From an uncultured Bacillota bacterium (GTDB taxonomy: Bacteria; Bacillota_I; Bacilli_A; Erysipelotrichales; Coprobacillaceae): a stretch of 63,514 nt of DNA. Position 1 is the stretch's first letter. Every line of letters starts with the position of its first letter. A program made the position numbers and the translations under genes. Positions 7,323 to 56,915 of the stretch are shown piece by piece. The notes under the pieces are model-generated. The model worked only from the letters and a program-made list of their open reading frames with translations. It was not told the DNA's origin and searched no databases. The stretch covers positions 1-63,514 of the forward strand of contig CASETM010000064.1 of NCBI GenBank assembly GCA_949290865.1, written 5' to 3'.

Positions 7323-7732
7323 TATAAGAAAATTTACACGATCTGAATAAGTCGAAAAACTATTGTTTTTTATATGCAGAAAGTATATTGCTGAAAGGAA
7401 TTAGACATTATTTGATTGAGAAAAGTTTAAAGTTTATTAAGATGTCTGGATTTTGGTGTAGAAATATTATATACATCTTTATCATTGTTTAAAGTAACAA
7501 ATGATGATAGCTAAATAAAGGCAAAATAAATGTTATCTTTAAATAAGAGTTTTGATGAGAGATGACATTTTTTTCTAAGAAAAAGTGTATACATCCAAAA
7601 ATTAAAAAGATGTTATAAGATTTTGATAAAATGGATTGCATAACAGCAATCTTTTTTAGTAAATGGTTTATAATGTAGTTGAAAATTGTACGAAATCTAG
7701 TGATTTTTATTGAGTATAAGGAGGATATGAGG
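7323..7732. other. Non-coding leader region before the macro-domain gene
   Basis: About 410 bp, very AT-rich, without a credible ORF. A terminator hairpin at 7634-7658 lies 75 bp before the macro-domain gene. Either a small RNA ends there or the macro gene has an attenuated leader. Confidence 0.45.
7634..7658 (+). terminator. Terminator upstream of the macro-domain gene
   Basis: GATTGC-ATAACA-GCAATC followed by six T. Confidence 0.65.
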
Positions 7733-8770
7733 ATGCCTTTTGAAATAGTACGCAACGATATTGTGAATATGCAGGTAGATGCTATTGTCAATACAGCTAA
7801 TCCACGCCCAGTTATAGGAGCAGGGGTGGATAGTGCCATACATAAAAAAGCTGGTGAGAAATTATTGCAGGCACGCATGAAAATAGGAGATATTGAATTT
7901 GGTAAAGCCGTCATTACACCAGGATTTGATTTAGATGCGCAATATGTCATACATACGGCTGGTCCTTTGTGGAATGGAGGAAATCATGAAGAAAGTAAAA
8001 TTTTAGCTTCGTGTTATCGAGAATCTTTAACTTTAGCGAAAAAGTATCATTGTCAATCGATAGCTTTCCCTTTAATATCTACCGGGAGTTATGGTTTTCC
8101 CAAGTCTTTGGCTTTACAGATTGCCATTCATGAAATAAGTGCTTTTCTTCTAGAAAATGAAATGCTTATTTATCTGGTGGTTTTTGAAAATGAATCTTTT
8201 GTCCTTTCTGAAAAACTATTTCAATCGGTGAGCAGTTATATTGATGAAAACTATATCAGCGATAAAATATTTGATGAATATGGTGTAGCGAATATTGAGC
8301 GAATTCATCTGGATTCTAGACGTTTTAGACAATATGATTATCAAAATATGAAAATGTCATCATCTTTAAATGATGATGATAAAACTGAATTTAACAGTGA
8401 TGTTTTGAGTGATTGGCTAGAAAGTCTTGATGCTGGATTTTCAGAAACGTTGTTACAGCTGATCGATCGTAGTGGGAAAAAGGATGTAGAAATCTATAAA
8501 AAGGCAAATGTAGATAGAAAACTGTTTTCTAAGATTCGTAATAATAAAAATTATAGACCGTCTAAACCAACGGCTATTGCCTTTGCTTTGGCTTTAGAAT
8601 TAAATCTTGAGGAAACCAAAGATTTAATTGGACGTGCGGGTTTTGCTTTGTCTCATAGCAGTAAGTTTGATGTTATCGTGGAATATTTTCTTATCAACAG
8701 AAATTATAATATCTTTGAATTAAATGAGGTGTTATTCGCTTTTGATCAGCCTTTGATTGGTGTATCGTAA
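7733..8770 (+). CDS. Macro-domain ADP-ribose hydrolase with C-terminal helical domain
   Basis: 345 aa in two parts. Residues about 1-150 form a macro domain: AIVNTANPRPVIGAGVDSAI matches the MacroD-type N-A-A-N and G-G-G-V-D-x-A-I-H loops with the Asp kept, and PLISTGSYGFP is the second ligand loop. This predicts binding or removal of ADP-ribose. Residues about 225-345 form an all-helical domain (DVEIYKKANVDRKLFSKIRN ... KPTAIAFALALELNLEETKDL) that resembles a helix-turn-helix. The start at 7733 has AAGGAGGA 8 nt upstream; the longer frame has none. First gene of a cassette with a vWA protein and an ADP-ribosylglycohydrolase. Confidence 0.88.
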   Translation: MPFEIVRNDIVNMQVDAIVNTANPRPVIGAGVDSAIHKKAGEKLLQARMKIGDIEFGKAVITPGFDLDAQYVIHTAGPLWNGGNHEESKILASCYRESLTLAKKYHCQSIAFPLISTGSYGFPKSLALQIAIHEISAFLLENEMLIYLVVFENESFVLSEKLFQSVSSYIDENYISDKIFDEYGVANIERIHLDSRRFRQYDYQNMKMSSSLNDDDKTEFNSDVLSDWLESLDAGFSETLLQLIDRSGKKDVEIYKKANVDRKLFSKIRNNKNYRPSKPTAIAFALALELNLEETKDLIGRAGFALSHSSKFDVIVEYFLINRNYNIFELNEVLFAFDQPLIGVS

Positions 8771-8848
8771 TGTCGCATGCGATGCGACCATTTAAGCTCT
8801 TGCTTTTTCTATAATGAAACCACAATAAAGAAAAGGGAGGAGTTTAAA

Positions 8849-9493
8849 ATGACTGAACTCGTATTTATTTTAGATCGCAGTGGTTCCATGTCAGGATTGG
8901 AACAGGATACAATTGGAGGTTTCAATGCAATGCTGGAAAAACAGCGAAAAGAACCAGGAGATGCTATCATATCTACTGTATTGTTTGATAGCACAATAGA
9001 AGTTATTTATGATCGTATTAATATTAAGGAAGTCAAAAATCTAACGGATAAGGAATACTATCCTCGTGGCTGTACAGCGCTTTTGGATGCCGTTGGTGGA
9101 GCTATCCATCATATTGGAAATGTTCATAAATATGCCCGTAAAGAAGATATACCAAATAAGACACTTTTTATTATTACGACTGATGGAATGGAAAATGCCA
9201 GTTGCCGTTATACCTATGAAAAGGTTCGTTACATGATTGAGCGTCAGAAAAAACGTTATGGCTGGGAATTTCTTTTCCTTGGTGCTCATATTGATGCCGT
9301 CAGTGAAGCTGGAAAGTTTGGGATTCATGAATCGATGGCTGTTAACTTTCATAGTGATGCTGCTGGTACAGCTTTAAATTATGAAGTCATTAGTGAAACT
9401 ATTACCCAAATAAGAACACAAACATCACCTTTATCGGCTGACTGGAAAAGAAGAATTGATGAAGATTATAGAAATAGAGGTGGAAAAAGATGA
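8849..9493 (+). CDS. von Willebrand factor A domain protein
   Basis: 214 aa, essentially a single cytoplasmic vWA domain. The metal-ion-dependent adhesion site is complete: DRSGSMSG near residue 10, the Thr in RGCTALLDAVG and the Asp in ITTDGMEN. No signal peptide or membrane segment. Such proteins assemble complexes through a bound divalent metal. The start at 8849 follows AAAGGGAGGAG; the upstream frame has no ribosome site. Its stop overlaps the next start as ATGA, so it is translationally coupled to the ADP-ribosylglycohydrolase. The partner it binds cannot be told from sequence. Confidence 0.9.
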   Translation: MTELVFILDRSGSMSGLEQDTIGGFNAMLEKQRKEPGDAIISTVLFDSTIEVIYDRINIKEVKNLTDKEYYPRGCTALLDAVGGAIHHIGNVHKYARKEDIPNKTLFIITTDGMENASCRYTYEKVRYMIERQKKRYGWEFLFLGAHIDAVSEAGKFGIHESMAVNFHSDAAGTALNYEVISETITQIRTQTSPLSADWKRRIDEDYRNRGGKR

Positions 9494-10296
9494 TAGGTGC
9501 TATTTTAGGTGATATGATAGGAAGCCCTTACGAATTTGACCGTGGGAATAAGAGTAAAGAATTTCCTTTATTCTCACCAGAATCGACTTATACTGATGAT
9601 ACTGTTATGACGTTGGCAGTAGCAAAAGCTTTTCTTGATATCAATGAGAATACTAAAGATGAAGAAATCTTACAAAATCTTGCTAAATCTATGCGAGAAT
9701 TTGGTTTAATGTATCCTGATGTTGGCTATGGCAGTAGGTTTTATACGTGGTTATTTGATCCAAAGTGTCAGGCTTATCATAGCTATGGAAATGGTGCTGC
9801 GATGCGGGTTTCTGTAGTGGCATGGTTATATAACGATATTGAAGCGGTTAAACATGCTGCTAAGCTTTCTGCTTTGGTGACGCATGATCATCCTGAAGGC
9901 ATCAAAGGTGCTCAAGCTACAGCATGTGCTATTTTTCTGGCGAGAACAGGACATAGTAAAGTAACAATCAAAGAATATATTGAACATGAATTTGGATATG
10001 ATTTAAGTCGTACGTGCGATCAAATCAGAAAACATTATTATCATGTTGAAACTTGTATGGAAACTGTGCCAGAGGCCATTACCGCTTTTCTGGAAGGAGA
10101 TAGTTTTGAAGATGTGATTCGCACAGCGGTATCTTTAGGTGGTGATTGTGATACTTTGACAGCAATCGCTGGCAGTATTGCCGAAGGTTTTTATGGTGTT
10201 CCCTTAGAGTTAAAGGAAGAATGCTATTCCCGTCTTCCACAACCGCTATTAGAGATGTTAGAAAGATTTGAAAAATATTTGCAACAGATTGATTAA
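9490..10296 (+). CDS. ADP-ribosylglycohydrolase (DraG/ARH family)
   Basis: 268-aa dinuclear-metal hydrolase of the DraG/ARH fold. It opens with GAILGDMIGSPYEFDR. The metal-binding TDDTVMT motif is near residue 37, and the second metal motif is GGDCDTLTAIAGSIA near residue 217. These enzymes remove ADP-ribose from modified Arg or other acceptors, or hydrolyse ADP-ribosyl metabolites. Coupled by a 4-bp overlap to the vWA gene. Together with the macro protein the cassette carries two unrelated ADP-ribose-removing folds, but no ADP-ribosyltransferase is visible nearby. Confidence 0.92.
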   Translation: MIGAILGDMIGSPYEFDRGNKSKEFPLFSPESTYTDDTVMTLAVAKAFLDINENTKDEEILQNLAKSMREFGLMYPDVGYGSRFYTWLFDPKCQAYHSYGNGAAMRVSVVAWLYNDIEAVKHAAKLSALVTHDHPEGIKGAQATACAIFLARTGHSKVTIKEYIEHEFGYDLSRTCDQIRKHYYHVETCMETVPEAITAFLEGDSFEDVIRTAVSLGGDCDTLTAIAGSIAEGFYGVPLELKEECYSRLPQPLLEMLERFEKYLQQID

Positions 10297-15014: not shown

Positions 15015-15046
15015 AATGAAGTGAACCTTTCATTTCATATCTTTTT
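15003..15046. terminator. Bidirectional terminator between convergent genes
   Basis: AAAGATATGAAATGAA / TTTCATTTCATATCTTT stem with A and T runs on both sides. It overlaps the ends of both convergent genes. Confidence 0.85.
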
Positions 15047-15721
15047 ATATGCATGTAACTGAGAAACGGTTACAAACTGAAATCCTTTTGCTTTGAGCTT
15101 TGGAATGAGCTTTTTCAAAGCGGAAATGGTTTGCTGGTTATCATCATGAAAAACAATGATATCCTGATCTTTGATTTGATGGAGTACAGTATGATATATA
15201 TTTTCCGCTTGCGGAGACGACCAGTCACCACTATCCAGGCTCCAGAGAACTAATGGCTGGTTAATATTTTTTTTAACATCATCATTTACATGGCCATAGG
15301 GAGGACGGACATATTTTAGTTTATAATCTGGGATTATTTTTTGTATTGCTGATTCGGTTTTATAAATTTGCTGTTTGATTTGTCTGGAGGACAATTTCGT
15401 GAGATCCTGATGAGAAAAAGTATGATTTGCTAGCTCATGCCCTGTGTGAGCCATTTTTTTGATCAGCAGTGGATAACGCCGAATATTTTCACCAGTGACA
15501 AAAAATGTTGCCAAAACTTGCTGATTATCTAACAGTTTTAACAGTTGAGGGGTATAATGGCTGTTAGGTCCATCGTCAAATGTTAAAGCAATCATTGGCT
15601 TATCACGATCAATGGTATAAATAATTGGTTTTTGTATGAAGTATGATTTTAAAAAGAAGAAACTCAGACAAAAAATCAAGAAAAAGATAAATACAGGAAA
15701 TATCATATTTTTTAATTTCAT
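15035..15721 (-). CDS. Membrane-anchored polysaccharide deacetylase (NodB/CE4)
   Basis: 228 aa with one N-terminal membrane anchor (about residues 6-26) and an outward-facing NodB domain. TFDDGP (near residue 48) holds the catalytic base Asp and metal Asp, HTFSH the two metal His, and RPPYG and the WSLDSGDW region complete the site. It removes acetyl groups from GlcNAc polymers or peptidoglycan. The ATG at 15721 has AAGGAG 7 nt upstream and overlaps the stop of the glycosyltransferase. It probably modifies the polymer made by that enzyme. Confidence 0.9.
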   Translation of the reverse strand: MKLKNMIFPVFIFFLIFCLSFFFLKSYFIQKPIIYTIDRDKPMIALTFDDGPNSHYTPQLLKLLDNQQVLATFFVTGENIRRYPLLIKKMAHTGHELANHTFSHQDLTKLSSRQIKQQIYKTESAIQKIIPDYKLKYVRPPYGHVNDDVKKNINQPLVLWSLDSGDWSSPQAENIYHTVLHQIKDQDIIVFHDDNQQTISALKKLIPKLKAKGFQFVTVSQLHAYKKI

Positions 15722-16986
15722 GACCATTCTCCTTTTTTATGCATTAGACGTGTGATATAGCCATGAATAGCGGCTGTACTTTGAATGAGCTGGAAGCTAA
15801 ATAGAAAAGCAACAAAGCCTATGAAACTGTTAACAAAAGGAATATTAAGTTTTCTTTGATACTGATACATGTTGAAATAAAGCAAGGTACAAATAAGGAT
15901 TGTCCACAAAGTTAAACATCCAACAAAATAATTGAAACCTAGAAATGCCCAAATAACACCAGGTATCAAACCAAAGAGAAAAGCTAAATCAAGGTCAATG
16001 ATGAAAAGATTGACAGTTGTGAAATATCGGGAAAAACCGTTACCCTGTTTCCATGGGGGAACGGTAATGAGACCTTCAATCATACCGATAGCCCAGCGTT
16101 TACGCTGCTGATATAATGTGTTTAAACTTTCAGGAACAACCGTATAGGCGACGGCTTGTGGTTCATAATCAGAAAGCAGATTTTGCTGAAGCAGCTGATA
16201 GGTTAAAACAATATCTTCACCTAAAACATCTTTCCAGCCGCCAATTCGACACACTGCTTCTGTTTCATAAGCGCTAAAAGCACCTTGAGCAACTAATGTT
16301 GAGTGATAGCTTCCCTGGAAACGTTTGATGGCACAAATACTTAAAAGATAATCGTAATTTTGCATCTTAGTTATAATTGAATGATTGCTATTTGCAACGT
16401 AGATATTACCAGCAACACAGGCGCATTTTTCACTCATAATGTGGTTCATGATTTTTTGCACAGCACTTTTTTCTAAGCATGTATCACCATCTACAGTAAT
16501 GAAATAGGGTGTACATACCAGTTTTAATCCTGCGTTTAATGCATGATGTTTGCCAGCTCGGGAACAAAAAACATATTCGATCTGTCGATTTGGAGTTGAT
16601 TGACACATTTTTTGTTTGATAATTTTTTTTGTATGATCAGATGAACAATTATCAATCACTAGCAAACGAATGCATCCTTGATAATTTTGATCGATAACTG
16701 CCTGTATAGCTTTAGCGATGTTTTTTTCTTCATTATGAGTGCACATGATAACTGTAGTTGCATCCTTGACATTAGGATAGTTTTTGGTTTTCCAGTTCAG
16801 CAGATTTGAAAAAAACATGGTACTCATCAGCAAACCAGGCAGTAATGCAATGCTAATAATGACCCACCAGATATAAAAATCAGGAAATATTCCGTATAAC
16901 TCTTGAGCCCAGTAAAAAGCAAAATAACTGGAAATGGTTAACCATAGGCCACCTAAACTTAAGGACAGTAAAAATTTTTTTAGCAA
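15718..16986 (-). CDS. Processive family-2 glycosyltransferase (PgaC/IcaA-like)
   Basis: 422-aa integral membrane enzyme. It has two N-terminal helices (about 5-25 and 38-62), then a cytoplasmic GT2 domain with CTHNEE, DXD as VDGD (165-168), GED (256-258) and the processive-synthase motif QQRKRW (293-298), then about three C-terminal helices. This is the architecture of poly-GlcNAc and hyaluronan-type synthases that polymerise and export a polysaccharide. Paired with a deacetylase as in PNAG systems. No PilZ domain or PgaD-like partner is seen. Confidence 0.88.
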   Translation of the reverse strand: MLKKFLLSLSLGGLWLTISSYFAFYWAQELYGIFPDFYIWWVIISIALLPGLLMSTMFFSNLLNWKTKNYPNVKDATTVIMCTHNEEKNIAKAIQAVIDQNYQGCIRLLVIDNCSSDHTKKIIKQKMCQSTPNRQIEYVFCSRAGKHHALNAGLKLVCTPYFITVDGDTCLEKSAVQKIMNHIMSEKCACVAGNIYVANSNHSIITKMQNYDYLLSICAIKRFQGSYHSTLVAQGAFSAYETEAVCRIGGWKDVLGEDIVLTYQLLQQNLLSDYEPQAVAYTVVPESLNTLYQQRKRWAIGMIEGLITVPPWKQGNGFSRYFTTVNLFIIDLDLAFLFGLIPGVIWAFLGFNYFVGCLTLWTILICTLLYFNMYQYQRKLNIPFVNSFIGFVAFLFSFQLIQSTAAIHGYITRLMHKKGEWS

Positions 16987-17082: not shown

Positions 17083-17111
17083 TTGACAATTGTTTTGATA
17101 TTGGGTATTAT
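17083..17111 (+). promoter_or_regulatory. Promoter of the c-di-GMP riboswitch/surface protein unit
   Basis: TTGACA (17083-17088), 17-bp spacer, TATTAT (17106-17111), directly before the aptamer. Confidence 0.85.
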
Positions 17112-17127
17112 CATCATGCTACTATAC

Positions 17128-17249
17128 AAATTAAATAGGCAAACCTGTTGAAAAGCAGAGTACGCAAAGCTATAGGGTCTAAATCATAGAGATATGATAA
17201 GACAGCCAGTTGCATTTTTTCTTAGCGTACTTTTTGTGCGTTTTTTTTG
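17128..17249 (+). promoter_or_regulatory. c-di-GMP-I (GEMM-I) riboswitch with terminator
   Basis: The conserved aptamer blocks are present in order: AGGCAAACC, a GAAA tetraloop region, TACGCAAAGC, AGGGTCTAAA and CAGCCAGTTGC. A terminator follows: AGCGTAC (17224-17230), loop TTTTT, GTGCGTT and eight T. The aptamer segment AGTACGCAAAG (17159-17169) can instead pair with CTTAGCGTACT (17221-17231), which would open the terminator. Folding with c-di-GMP would block that pairing, so an OFF switch is predicted. The switch direction is inference; the aptamer identity is strong. Confidence 0.88.
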
Positions 17250-17279
17250 TTAAAAAAATATGTTAAGGAGGATTAGGAT

Positions 17280-20200
17280 TTGAAAAACAAATTATTTAAT
17301 TACTTAGTAGTAGGTATGGTCACAGTATCTGCTTTAGCCAATCCATTTGGGATTTTTGCTGAGAGTAGTCAAGAAGCTGTTCAAAATATTGATTTAGAAG
17401 ATGTTTTGGATGCGACACATCAAGATGTGACAGTTGAACAGGCTCAAAAAGATTTCGAGTCCGTAGTATCTGATGATGTGGAGATTGCTGAAAATGAAAT
17501 TGCTGCATATTCACTAGATCAGAAACAAACAAGTCAGTATATTTATTTATCTGATTTGAATTATTTATCTCAGTCAGCTGCTGGCTGGGGAAATATTCAA
17601 AAAGATAAAAATGTTGATGGAGGAACCATTACTTTACTTATAGATGGTGAAAAAACTTTTTTCTATAAAGGTTTAGGAGCACATGCAACATCTCATCTGA
17701 TTTATGATTTAAGTCAGGTCGATAAGGAATATTCACGTTTTAGTTCATATGTTGGTGTGGATCATTCTAAAGTTGGTAAAAGTGATGGAGTTAGGTTTGC
17801 TGTTTATGTTTCTAATTATGAAAACAAAGAATGGCAATTAGTGGGATCAACAGAAGTTTTAAGACCACAAGATAACGCTTATAAATTTGATATTGATTTA
17901 AGTCAATATGAATATAAATATTTAAAATTAACATCTACCGTATATGGAAGTACTTCTAGTGATCATTCTGTATATGGAAACTGCCGTTTGCTAAAAGCTG
18001 GATATGATGAAAATGATGAAATCTATACTGGATTAAAAACGGTATCAGAATATGATAAGGAAATTTCATCTCGTTCGATTGAAGATAACTATGAAAATCA
18101 TCGTGATGATATTTTAAAAAGAGAATTTGTTAATAGAATTGGATATCAGAATATCCAAAGTTTGATGCGACAGGATATATCTTTAAAAGATACGTTAGAC
18201 TGGCTGTTAGAAGATGACAATGCCTTACAGCTGTTTATTGAAGCGGGAGGATACTTCAGCGGTAATGGTTATAATGCCTTAAATGCTTTACATTGTTTAT
18301 ATCAGGAATTCAAAGATGATATGGGAAGCAGTGGTGATAAGCTGATGTATAAAAAGATGCTGTTAGCGACTGCTGCGGGATATTCAAAAACGATTAGAAC
18401 TTTTTTAGTGAATTATGGCGGAAAAGCCTATAATTCTGATCCAGTGGTTAAGTTTAAAGAATTCAAAGAGTTATATGATAATGATGGATTTATTCGCAAA
18501 GATGAATTTAAATCTTATCCTATGGAATTAATAAGAACAGTTATGGATTCACGTATTAATGATGTGGAAATTGACTGGTTAAGAGATTATATTGATATCA
18601 AGTATCCACCTGAAACGCATCTTAATAACTGGGTGAGATATAATGGTTATGGATATGCTCGTTATGTGAATACAGGATATAATAAACCTGAATTCTATAG
18701 TGAAGAAAATAAAACCAAATGGGATAACAAATATGGTTTCTTAAAATATGGTATTAGCTATGGTGAAAGCAGTTTATATCGTATTTGGATGTTTATGGAA
18801 GCTGGAGCTATCTGCTGGGGATTATCAGGACTGGGAATGACTGTTAATGAAGTTCAAGGTATTCCTGCTGTCGGAACTTATCAGCCTGGACACGAAGCTT
18901 ATCTGTTATATAGTGTTAATGCAAAAGGTGAAGGAGTTTGGTCGATTTCGGATAATATCGGTGGCTGGAAATCGTCTTATACAAGATGGGGAAGTACAAC
19001 AGCAACTGAACATCGATTATTATTAGAATGGGGACAAAAGGATTACAATGTTTTAAATAGTGGCAATAATACATCATATATGTTATTGGCTCAAGATGCT
19101 TTAAATCACTATGATGATTATTTAGATTCAATGTTCTATTATCTGCTGTCTAACAGTTATAAACAAGGTAGTCAAAAACGTGAAGAGGCATTAACAAAAT
19201 CATTAGAATGTTATAGTAAAAACTTAGATTCATTGTATGGATTATACCAGTCTTATCAAAGTGATGAGACAACAAGTGATCAAAAATGGCTAGAGCTGGC
19301 AAGAACTGTTGTCGATGAGTATACATATTTTCCAGCGCCAATGGTTGATTTATTAAAGCTGATCAAACCACATATTAAAGATGAAGTTTTACAGATTGAA
19401 GTCGATATGTTACAGACAGAAGCCTTGCATTTAGCAAGCGTTGCAACAGAAAAAGAAAGCTTACAGTTTAATGCCTGCCGTGAAGTAGCAAAAGCATTAT
19501 TAGGTCAATCAGCCAAAGAACTGGCAACTTTCTCTTTTGATGGAGAACATGCCAATACGATCATGATCAATGAAAGTTATAATGATACGATGATTCAAGT
19601 CAGAGTTTCATTAGATGGTGGAAAAAACTGGGAAAAATTCGCTAATGATGAAACCTACACTTTTGATCATCAGATTCAGTTATCTAAAGAACAGGTTGCA
19701 AGAATTAATGCCGATGATGATATTACAATTGGTTTAATGGGAACAGATAAAAATTATATCATTGATATTAAAGACGGATTAAGTTTAGGTAATGATGTTT
19801 ATAAAAATGATGATGAAAATTTACTGATTGGTAATACCAAAAGTTTACAGTATAGTATTGATGCAGGACAAACCTGGCATGATTATGATGGCAGTCTAAC
19901 GAGTCAGACACGTATTGAAGGTGATACAACGGCACTGTTTAGATATAAGCCAACGGGAATCTATTTGCAGGGTCCTGAAAAATCATATCAGTTTACAGCT
20001 AATAGCACAGATGAAAAAAATCAGTATGTGCAGTTAAAAAATGTATATTTAAAAGATTTTTCATCACAACAGGATAATACCAAAGACCGTGCTGCACTGA
20101 ATTTAATTGATGGTAATCAATATACAGCATGGCATACCAAATATAATGATAGTAGCGATCAAAGATTTTATACTGTAGGATTTAATAAAGTACGTTATAT

Positions 20201-21836
20201 TTCTCAACTGTCTTTCTTGCCAGGAACAGGGAATAATGGACGTCCTAAAACATTAGAAATTTATACAAGTATCGATGGCCAAGATTGGATATTAGTCAAA
20301 ACAGAAAGTCTGGCCAACAATGCTCAATTAAAAAACATTCAATTAGATGAAGCTACAGCGGCTAAATATATTAAGTTACATGCGAAAGAATCATATGGTA
20401 ACAGTACTGGTGAAAACAACATGTATTTCAGTGGTAGAATGTTATGGTTCTATGAAGATACAACACAGCAGTATGTATCTCAGCCAACAATTGAATATTC
20501 AACAACAGAAATGACAAATCAAAACGTCACAGCAACTTTACATTTGCCTGCGGGATGCCAAAGTGATATTACAGAATATACTTTTGAAACGAATGGAACT
20601 TATCAGTTTGTTTATCAGGATGAAAATGGTGATGAACAGACAATAGAAGCCCATGTAAGCTGGATCGATAAAGAAATCCCAACGGCTCAAATCGTATATA
20701 GTACGGAAAAATTAACGAATGGTTCTGTTGTCGCGACATTAACTGATTTTTCAAAAGAAGATATGACGATTACTTCACAAGGTGGAGCAACACATGTCTT
20801 TGATGATAATGGGGAATTTACCTTTGAATTTAAAGATCGTGCGGGAAATACAGGCAGTGCGGTCGCAACAGTGACATGGATTGACAAAGATGCCCCAGTC
20901 TTTACTGTCAGCTGGAATACAACAAAACCAACAAATCAGCCTGTAATCGCAACAGTGACAGGATTAGATGAAGGAGATACTGTTATTGGAGAAGCCACAC
21001 ATACGTTTACCGAAAATGGATCATGGACATTTAGAGTTCAAGATGCAGCAGGAAATATCAGTGAACAGACAGTGACGGTTTCATGGATCGATACAGAGAA
21101 ACCAACCGGACAATTAAAATATTCATCCAACAGCTGGACCAATGAAGCAGTCACTGTTTCATTAGAGCAGTTAAGTGAAAATGTAACTTTCTTAGATGGT
21201 TCAAATGGGTCATATACTTTTAAAGAAAATGGCAAATATACATTTAAGATTCAGGATGAAGCAGGGAATATTTCACAGTACACAGCCAAAGTGACTTGGA
21301 TCGATCATTCAAAAGTCAATGATGATGAAATGATCGTTTATGATCAGCAGGGACAACAGGCACAATTAAATATAGATCCGGCATTTGTAGAAATTTTAAG
21401 TGTTAATGGACAAAAAGCAGATCATACTTTCAAAATGACAGAAAATGGCACATATACATTTAAGTTAAGATTGAAAGATAGTGATTATGAATTTGAATAT
21501 ACGGTTGTTGTTGATACTATTCAAAATCTCCAAAAAGAAGAAAATAAAGTGACTGTTACAACATCAGATGAAATTCAAACCAATGATTTATCGGTTGCGG
21601 TTAGCGGAAATATGAGACAGGAAGAACAACAAAAAACTTATACAACCGATGATGATCGTGATGAGTTAGATTCATCGACCGATACAGGTCAACAAGTAAC
21701 AAAAGATCACTCTAATCCATTAACTACGCAAAAAGAGAGTCCAAAATCAGCGAAGAAAAATTATATTATTCCAATATCTGTTGGTGGTGGATTAGGATTA
21801 GGAGCACTGTATTTCTTCTTTAAAAAATATATATAA
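17280..21836 (+). CDS. Large c-di-GMP-controlled surface protein
   Basis: 1518 aa with a TTG start 8 nt after AAGGAGG. Signal peptide residues 1-27 (cleavage after GIFA). An NPCBM-type carbohydrate-binding domain lies at about 84-240. A central domain at about 270-760 contains AICWGLSGLGM near 510 and GHEAYLLY near 536, a Cys/His pattern like papain/transglutaminase folds. An F5/8-type discoidin domain lies at about 925-1050. Four Ig-like repeats ending in (V/T)WIDK span 1070-1345. The C-terminus has NPLTTQ, a short spacer, a hydrophobic segment and KKYI, a sortase-like tail without LPXTG. Probably a cell-wall adhesin or glycan-binding enzyme. Confidence 0.85.
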   Translation: MKNKLFNYLVVGMVTVSALANPFGIFAESSQEAVQNIDLEDVLDATHQDVTVEQAQKDFESVVSDDVEIAENEIAAYSLDQKQTSQYIYLSDLNYLSQSAAGWGNIQKDKNVDGGTITLLIDGEKTFFYKGLGAHATSHLIYDLSQVDKEYSRFSSYVGVDHSKVGKSDGVRFAVYVSNYENKEWQLVGSTEVLRPQDNAYKFDIDLSQYEYKYLKLTSTVYGSTSSDHSVYGNCRLLKAGYDENDEIYTGLKTVSEYDKEISSRSIEDNYENHRDDILKREFVNRIGYQNIQSLMRQDISLKDTLDWLLEDDNALQLFIEAGGYFSGNGYNALNALHCLYQEFKDDMGSSGDKLMYKKMLLATAAGYSKTIRTFLVNYGGKAYNSDPVVKFKEFKELYDNDGFIRKDEFKSYPMELIRTVMDSRINDVEIDWLRDYIDIKYPPETHLNNWVRYNGYGYARYVNTGYNKPEFYSEENKTKWDNKYGFLKYGISYGESSLYRIWMFMEAGAICWGLSGLGMTVNEVQGIPAVGTYQPGHEAYLLYSVNAKGEGVWSISDNIGGWKSSYTRWGSTTATEHRLLLEWGQKDYNVLNSGNNTSYMLLAQDALNHYDDYLDSMFYYLLSNSYKQGSQKREEALTKSLECYSKNLDSLYGLYQSYQSDETTSDQKWLELARTVVDEYTYFPAPMVDLLKLIKPHIKDEVLQIEVDMLQTEALHLASVATEKESLQFNACREVAKALLGQSAKELATFSFDGEHANTIMINESYNDTMIQVRVSLDGGKNWEKFANDETYTFDHQIQLSKEQVARINADDDITIGLMGTDKNYIIDIKDGLSLGNDVYKNDDENLLIGNTKSLQYSIDAGQTWHDYDGSLTSQTRIEGDTTALFRYKPTGIYLQGPEKSYQFTANSTDEKNQYVQLKNVYLKDFSSQQDNTKDRAALNLIDGNQYTAWHTKYNDSSDQRFYTVGFNKVRYISQLSFLPGTGNNGRPKTLEIYTSIDGQDWILVKTESLANNAQLKNIQLDEATAAKYIKLHAKESYGNSTGENNMYFSGRMLWFYEDTTQQYVSQPTIEYSTTEMTNQNVTATLHLPAGCQSDITEYTFETNGTYQFVYQDENGDEQTIEAHVSWIDKEIPTAQIVYSTEKLTNGSVVATLTDFSKEDMTITSQGGATHVFDDNGEFTFEFKDRAGNTGSAVATVTWIDKDAPVFTVSWNTTKPTNQPVIATVTGLDEGDTVIGEATHTFTENGSWTFRVQDAAGNISEQTVTVSWIDTEKPTGQLKYSSNSWTNEAVTVSLEQLSENVTFLDGSNGSYTFKENGKYTFKIQDEAGNISQYTAKVTWIDHSKVNDDEMIVYDQQGQQAQLNIDPAFVEILSVNGQKADHTFKMTENGTYTFKLRLKDSDYEFEYTVVVDTIQNLQKEENKVTVTTSDEIQTNDLSVAVSGNMRQEEQQKTYTTDDDRDELDSSTDTGQQVTKDHSNPLTTQKESPKSAKKNYIIPISVGGGLGLGALYFFFKKYI

Positions 21837-21842
21837 TGATTA

Positions 21843-21874
21843 AAAACATGCAATGAATTCATTGTATGTTTTTA
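21843..21874 (+). terminator. Terminator of the surface-protein gene
   Basis: AACATGCAATG-AATT-CATTGTATGTT followed by TTTATTT. Confidence 0.85.

Positions 21875-55154: not shown

Positions 55155-56915
<1,761 letters not shown>

Follow-up and report, generated by a model that had tools for sequence, protein, structure and literature searches.

Does cyclic dimeric GMP (c-di-GMP) switch off the synthesis of an adhesin in the Erysipelotrichales? The question is raised by a 63,514-nucleotide stretch of DNA (the window; positions 1 to 63,514 of contig CASETM010000064.1, assembly GCA_949290865.1) from an uncultured Bacillota bacterium of that order. Between 17083 and 21836, the original prediction had seen a complete c-di-GMP-I (GEMM-I) aptamer, a terminator and a rival pairing ahead of a gene for a 1518-residue surface protein, and had found the predicted OFF direction surprising for an adhesin. 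The RNA elements and their OFF logic stand up to our analysis, which combines a covariance search, folding and comparison of five related leaders; the adhesin premise does not. Judged by its sequence, the leader is a true class I OFF riboswitch, ordinary except for an unusual variant of the platform, and the gene under its control probably encodes a surface enzyme. The best overall explanation, which we consider likely, is a termination-type class I OFF switch acting on one gene for a surface-attached enzyme with a transglutaminase/cysteine-peptidase-like core.

The aptamer (17128–17217, forward strand, as are all features of this locus given below) matches Rfam model RF01051 over the full model length with 66.6 bits (E 7.7e-11), above the curated gathering score of 35, and a search of the whole genome found no other c-di-GMP-I aptamer. 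The conserved core of the family (GGCAAA, ACGCAAA(G/A)C and the GAAA loop) is present in the alignment. The P2 internal loop contains one additional nucleotide, which the Rfam model tolerates. A promoter-like sequence lies directly upstream of the aptamer and a predicted terminator directly downstream. The sigma-70-like promoter TTGACA-17-TATTAT (17083–17111) agrees with the consensus at 11 of 12 positions, and with a similar chance count in the scan it is weak on its own. The reading frame for the predicted 1518 residues runs from 17280 to 21836 and opens with a TTG start behind the ribosome-binding site AAGGAGG (17265–17271).

The intrinsic terminator (17224–17248) consists of a hairpin at 17224–17242 and a U tract. 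It is the single terminator-like site (7 bp, 5-nt loop, T tail) where 0.2 would be expected by chance, and its 33-nt region folds equally well in 1 of 1000 shuffles. The rival pairing predicted between 17159–17169 and 17221–17231 (AGTACGCAAAG with CTTAGCGTACT) is present, with 10 of 11 positions paired; the continuous helix joins 17157–17165 to 17225–17233 by 9 bp, including one G·U. The upstream strand of this helix, AGAGUACGC, forms the 3' side of the P2 base and carries GUACGC, including the inserted nucleotide that the five leaders share (U 17161 in the alignment). Its partner, GCGUACUUU, also provides, with 17225–17230, most of the 5' arm of the terminator. The arm GCGUAC thus has two alternative partners, its own 3' arm or the GUACGC of the aptamer. 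No part of the terminator belongs to the aptamer, its 5' arm can pair with an aptamer strand, and only one of the two pairings can form at a time; this is the layout of an OFF switch. In the predicted ligand-free ensemble, the antiterminator pairs have a probability of about 0.86 and the terminator pairs of 0.14. Since the ligand-free fold is dominated by the helix that blocks the terminator, the ligand should terminate transcription. Forbidding the pairing between aptamer and downstream sequence costs 2.2 kcal/mol in the folding, a price that, by this calculation, ligand binding could pay.

Our comparison covered 72 c-di-GMP-I aptamers, drawn from 32 genomes of the order. Five of them contain GUACGC, where they exceed the other aligned sequences by one nucleotide, and in each of the five this strand can pair with a downstream terminator arm. 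A model built from these leaders and searched against 315 genomes of the order scores the five at 127–140 bits and the next leader at 77. The terminator helix and the antiterminator helix are each paired in 30 of 30 cells, and slid controls drop to 0–83%; the antiterminator, whose lack of conservation would have spoken against the original prediction, is therefore conserved. One pair of the terminator helix is doubly changed and four carry one-sided changes, while substitutions in the shared arm are restricted to A/G and C/U, so that both pairings are kept. A bare GUACGC aptamer in genome G371 was not counted with them, as by eye it seems to have an ON-like layout and a different platform. Wider sampling of 392 genomes of the phylum gave no further leaders of this type, and neither did a pattern scan of viral contigs together with a phage search. 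Among the 72 aptamers, 14 have A for G before GCAAA (e.g., G105, G004:C3 and G002:C51:9598), at a position that seems to be that of A20 in GEMM-I RNAs of the cyclic GMP-AMP (cGAMP) type.

The genes behind the other leaders fall into two groups. The leader of G041, a Thomasclavelia metagenome-assembled genome, precedes a protein 54% identical to the window protein; near the start of this homologue (L040, about 270–330), the frame seems to be slightly disrupted within an A/T-rich stretch, probably because of the assembly or an indel. In G037 and G105, the same leader type precedes large M60 metallopeptidase-like proteins with a HEIGH motif, which are 39% identical to each other and unrelated to the window protein except for a weak CBM32-like stretch; the G037 protein matches solved structures of Clostridium perfringens Zmp glycopeptidases. 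The contig of the fifth leader (G121) stops before the downstream gene. A tentative reading, which may well prove wrong, is that the five leaders form a distinct Erysipelotrichales subtype of c-di-GMP-I, in which a fixed 1-nt insertion makes the P2 strand beside the ligand site the switching strand. The cassette would have become attached to two unrelated families of surface enzymes, one transglutaminase-like (and itself undescribed) and one M60, giving gut commensals a set of glycoprotein-acting enzymes for low c-di-GMP.

The protein encoded by the window gene has a signal peptide and a C-terminal membrane segment (residues 1496–1514; 21765–21821), identified by hydropathy and motif scans. 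The motif scan found no canonical LPXTG in the protein, only NPLTT at residue 1479, and the genome contains one sortase match. Binding modules are an NPCBM domain (residues 87–237; 17538–17990; PF08305, E 5e-25) and a CBM32/F5-F8 type C domain (residues 928–1041; 20061–20402; PF00754, E 1.6e-19), which is followed by predicted immunoglobulin (Ig)-like repeats (residues about 1070–1345; 20487–21314) with V[ST]WID recurring at 1126, 1198, 1267 and 1338. The Pfam search revealed no M60 domain, and the large middle region between NPCBM and CBM32 belongs to no Pfam family. A strong terminator hairpin (21841–21874) follows the gene, which is therefore probably transcribed alone.

The middle region holds the evidence for an enzyme. 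A genome scan with the single protein gave no relatives, and an alignment-based scan found 135, of which 80 were kept; relatives in named genomes thus number at least 135, and many come from gut Bacillota. Cys512, Gln535 and His538, present in every one of 65 aligned members, lie in a core of residues 366–625 (18375–19154), with Asp or Asn at 558–559. In the structure models (mean predicted local distance difference test score 91.9 for residues 245–925 and 88.0 for the core folded alone), Cys512 is situated at the start of a helix and His538 on a strand, as in transglutaminase-like enzymes. Searching with the whole model yields scattered weak matches, and a profile search of solved structures with the middle region gives TPR repeats alone. 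The core folded by itself produces a coherent list, nearly all transglutaminase-like: factor XIIIa is best (Z 6.7), and the others include TG2, TG3, a Cytophaga cysteine protease (3isr), Streptococcus pyogenes TglA, TgpA, PNGase, XPC and the pseudomurein endoisopeptidase PeiP. As none of the 65 members matches a known transglutaminase family profile at E 0.05, we speak of a transglutaminase-like fold and not of membership in a named family. A surface enzyme is the likelier identity of the product, and we rejected adhesin as its first-choice name because of the invariant Cys/His core.

The targets of other c-di-GMP-I leaders in the order bear on the direction of the switch. We classed leaders coarsely and by hand, as ON if the terminator includes the 3' strand of the aptamer and as OFF otherwise; three were assigned by eye. 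Adhesins, pilins, LPXTG or other surface proteins or sortase make up 13 of 14 ON targets versus 4 of 30 OFF targets (Fisher 6e-7, a value that overstates independence, since several targets are homologous and the classing was manual). GGDEF proteins, histidine kinases, solute-binding proteins and peptidases account for most OFF targets. With ON leaders mostly before adhesins and OFF leaders mostly before GGDEF proteins, sensors and hydrolases, as with the protease PPEP-1 of Clostridioides difficile, OFF is the expected direction for the window gene, in so far as the order-wide pattern is a guide. The premise that made OFF surprising is thereby left unsupported on two counts, the enzyme-like core and the company that OFF leaders keep. 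Our literature search found nothing on c-di-GMP riboswitches of Erysipelotrichia, nor on NPCBM/transglutaminase-like proteins.

Several observations weigh against an OFF switch on a surface enzyme. Taken alone, the rival helix does not exceed chance in the window sequence (its simple pairing score is matched by 364 of 2000 shuffles), so its support comes from the comparison of leaders; there, the aptamer side of the antiterminator is invariant and hence shows no compensatory change. The G121 leader prefers the terminator in its predicted ensemble even without ligand, which indicates that set points may differ among leaders, and the insertion near the ligand site could weaken ligand binding. 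The leader is present at 2 of 81 family loci (the window and G041), so the enzyme family as a whole does not share this regulation. For the protein, the third triad residue is not strictly fixed (Asp or Asn at one of two neighbouring columns in most of the 65, a shift of one column), all structural Z scores are below 8, with 6.7 the highest, and Foldseek with the core returns nothing at E <0.001 (best about 0.1); these modest values speak for a fold and not for a proven activity. Finally, one class I OFF switch of C. difficile lies ahead of a gene for a putative calcium-binding adhesin (PMC6200980), and OFF is therefore compatible with an adhesin.

That last case lends some weight to the alternative of an OFF switch on a true adhesin, or on an inactive relative that only binds, made at low c-di-GMP, for example to serve the first attachment of cells to mucus. 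Binding and spacing are the roles of modules such as NPCBM, CBM32 and Ig-like repeats, and a few OFF leaders of the order (L167, L168, L138) do precede surface proteins. Nevertheless, Cys and His are invariant in all 65 members and placed as in transglutaminase-like enzymes, and recognised adhesins of the order mostly have ON leaders, so we consider this alternative rather unlikely. Less probable still is an aptamer that, through its insertion, has lost c-di-GMP sensing or responds to another dinucleotide, so that the leader would be a relic or would attenuate constitutively. Few of the 72 aptamers have the insertion, which falls close to the ligand site within the P2 internal loop, and in the G105 leader, one of the five, A occupies the place of A20 in cGAMP-type GEMM-I RNAs (PMC6456294). 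However, the window leader has G at the equivalent of position 20, and the other core positions and both switching helices are kept in five leaders across two families. Very improbable is a switch that is ON or acts at translation instead of termination: both signs exist among class I switches (Bc2 of Bacillus thuringiensis is ON; PMC4933901), but the terminator here, in contrast to those of the order's ON leaders, is formed without any strand of the aptamer, the antiterminator forms between the aptamer and the terminator arm, and the hairpin with its U tract is well above chance.

For an OFF switch on a surface enzyme, we propose the following mechanism. At low c-di-GMP, the nascent RNA would pair the base of P2 (AGAGUACGC) with the 5' arm of the terminator; this helix would block the terminator, and the gene would be read. 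With c-di-GMP bound, the base of P2 would be held in the aptamer, the terminator would form and transcription would stop. The enzyme made in the low c-di-GMP state would be carried on glycan-binding NPCBM and CBM32 modules and Ig-like spacers and would probably act on host or bacterial glycoproteins. Such a logic would parallel that of C. difficile PPEP-1 (ZmpI), a surface-acting enzyme that is off at high c-di-GMP when adhesins are on.

All class I switches of C. difficile that were found to be functional are OFF, that of ZmpI/PPEP-1 among them, while the adhesins cleaved by PPEP-1 are under class II ON switches (PMC6200980, PMC6366702, PMC11477304). The window leader resembles that of ppep-1/zmpI (CD2830), where an OFF switch controls an extracellular enzyme and adhesins are on when c-di-GMP is high (PMC6200980, PMC11477304). 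The products differ: PPEP-1 is a secreted zinc protease, whereas the window gene encodes a large protein that would stay attached to the cell and whose core is predicted to be of the cysteine transglutaminase-like kind. Cd1, the OFF switch of the C. difficile flgB operon, likewise combines a class I aptamer and a separate terminator with an antiterminator formed by an aptamer strand and the terminator 5' arm, but it captures the 3' strand that closes the aptamer (PMC9262584). The antiterminator of the window leader would capture the 3' strand of the P2 base, with its inserted nucleotide, which seems to be a different design. Bc2, before the B. thuringiensis collagen adhesin gene cap, shares the class I riboswitch and terminator ahead of a large surface protein, but is ON and serves an adhesin (PMC4933901). 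On the protein side, the predicted fold and Cys/His placement are those of the transglutaminase-like superfamily (FXIIIa, TG2/TG3, S. pyogenes TglA, PNGase), although the window core has no Pfam match and a low structural Z. C. perfringens ZmpA, ZmpB and ZmpC are M60 glycopeptidases, the G037 and G105 leaders precede M60-like proteins, and the window NPCBM is similar to chain 7js4; the window protein differs in having no M60 domain.

The genome of the window encodes candidate proteins for the supply of c-di-GMP. It has eight GGDEF matches, at least two with an intact signature and two belonging to a single gene that an in-frame TGA divides in half (G000:C74:24244-24704), as well as two EAL proteins. 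PilZ was not found in this genome, with positive controls, and a class II c-di-GMP riboswitch search gave no match there, which is not proof of absence because its positive control matched nowhere. With neither PilZ nor a second c-di-GMP riboswitch of either class found (other receptor types were not searched), the window leader may be one of few direct c-di-GMP outputs. In G041, a c-di-GMP-I leader (L014; G041:C248:282-364) precedes a glycosyltransferase with a C-terminal PilZ domain, where c-di-GMP might act twice.

Divergent from the riboswitch gene, at 15035–16986 on the reverse strand, are a PgaC/IcaA-like glycosyltransferase (145 bits; curated cut-off 422) and a polysaccharide deacetylase, a possible exopolysaccharide pair. 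Elsewhere, the window contains a macrodomain protein near an ADP-ribosyl hydrolase-like protein (7679–10296) and a T-box leader (55158–55389; 110.4 bits).

An adhesin apparently shut off by c-di-GMP would thus give way to a testable rule for gut Erysipelotrichales, in which class I switches are ON for adhesins and pili and OFF for enzymes and signalling proteins. The locus also points to a widespread, uncharacterised family of putative surface enzymes in gut Bacillota.

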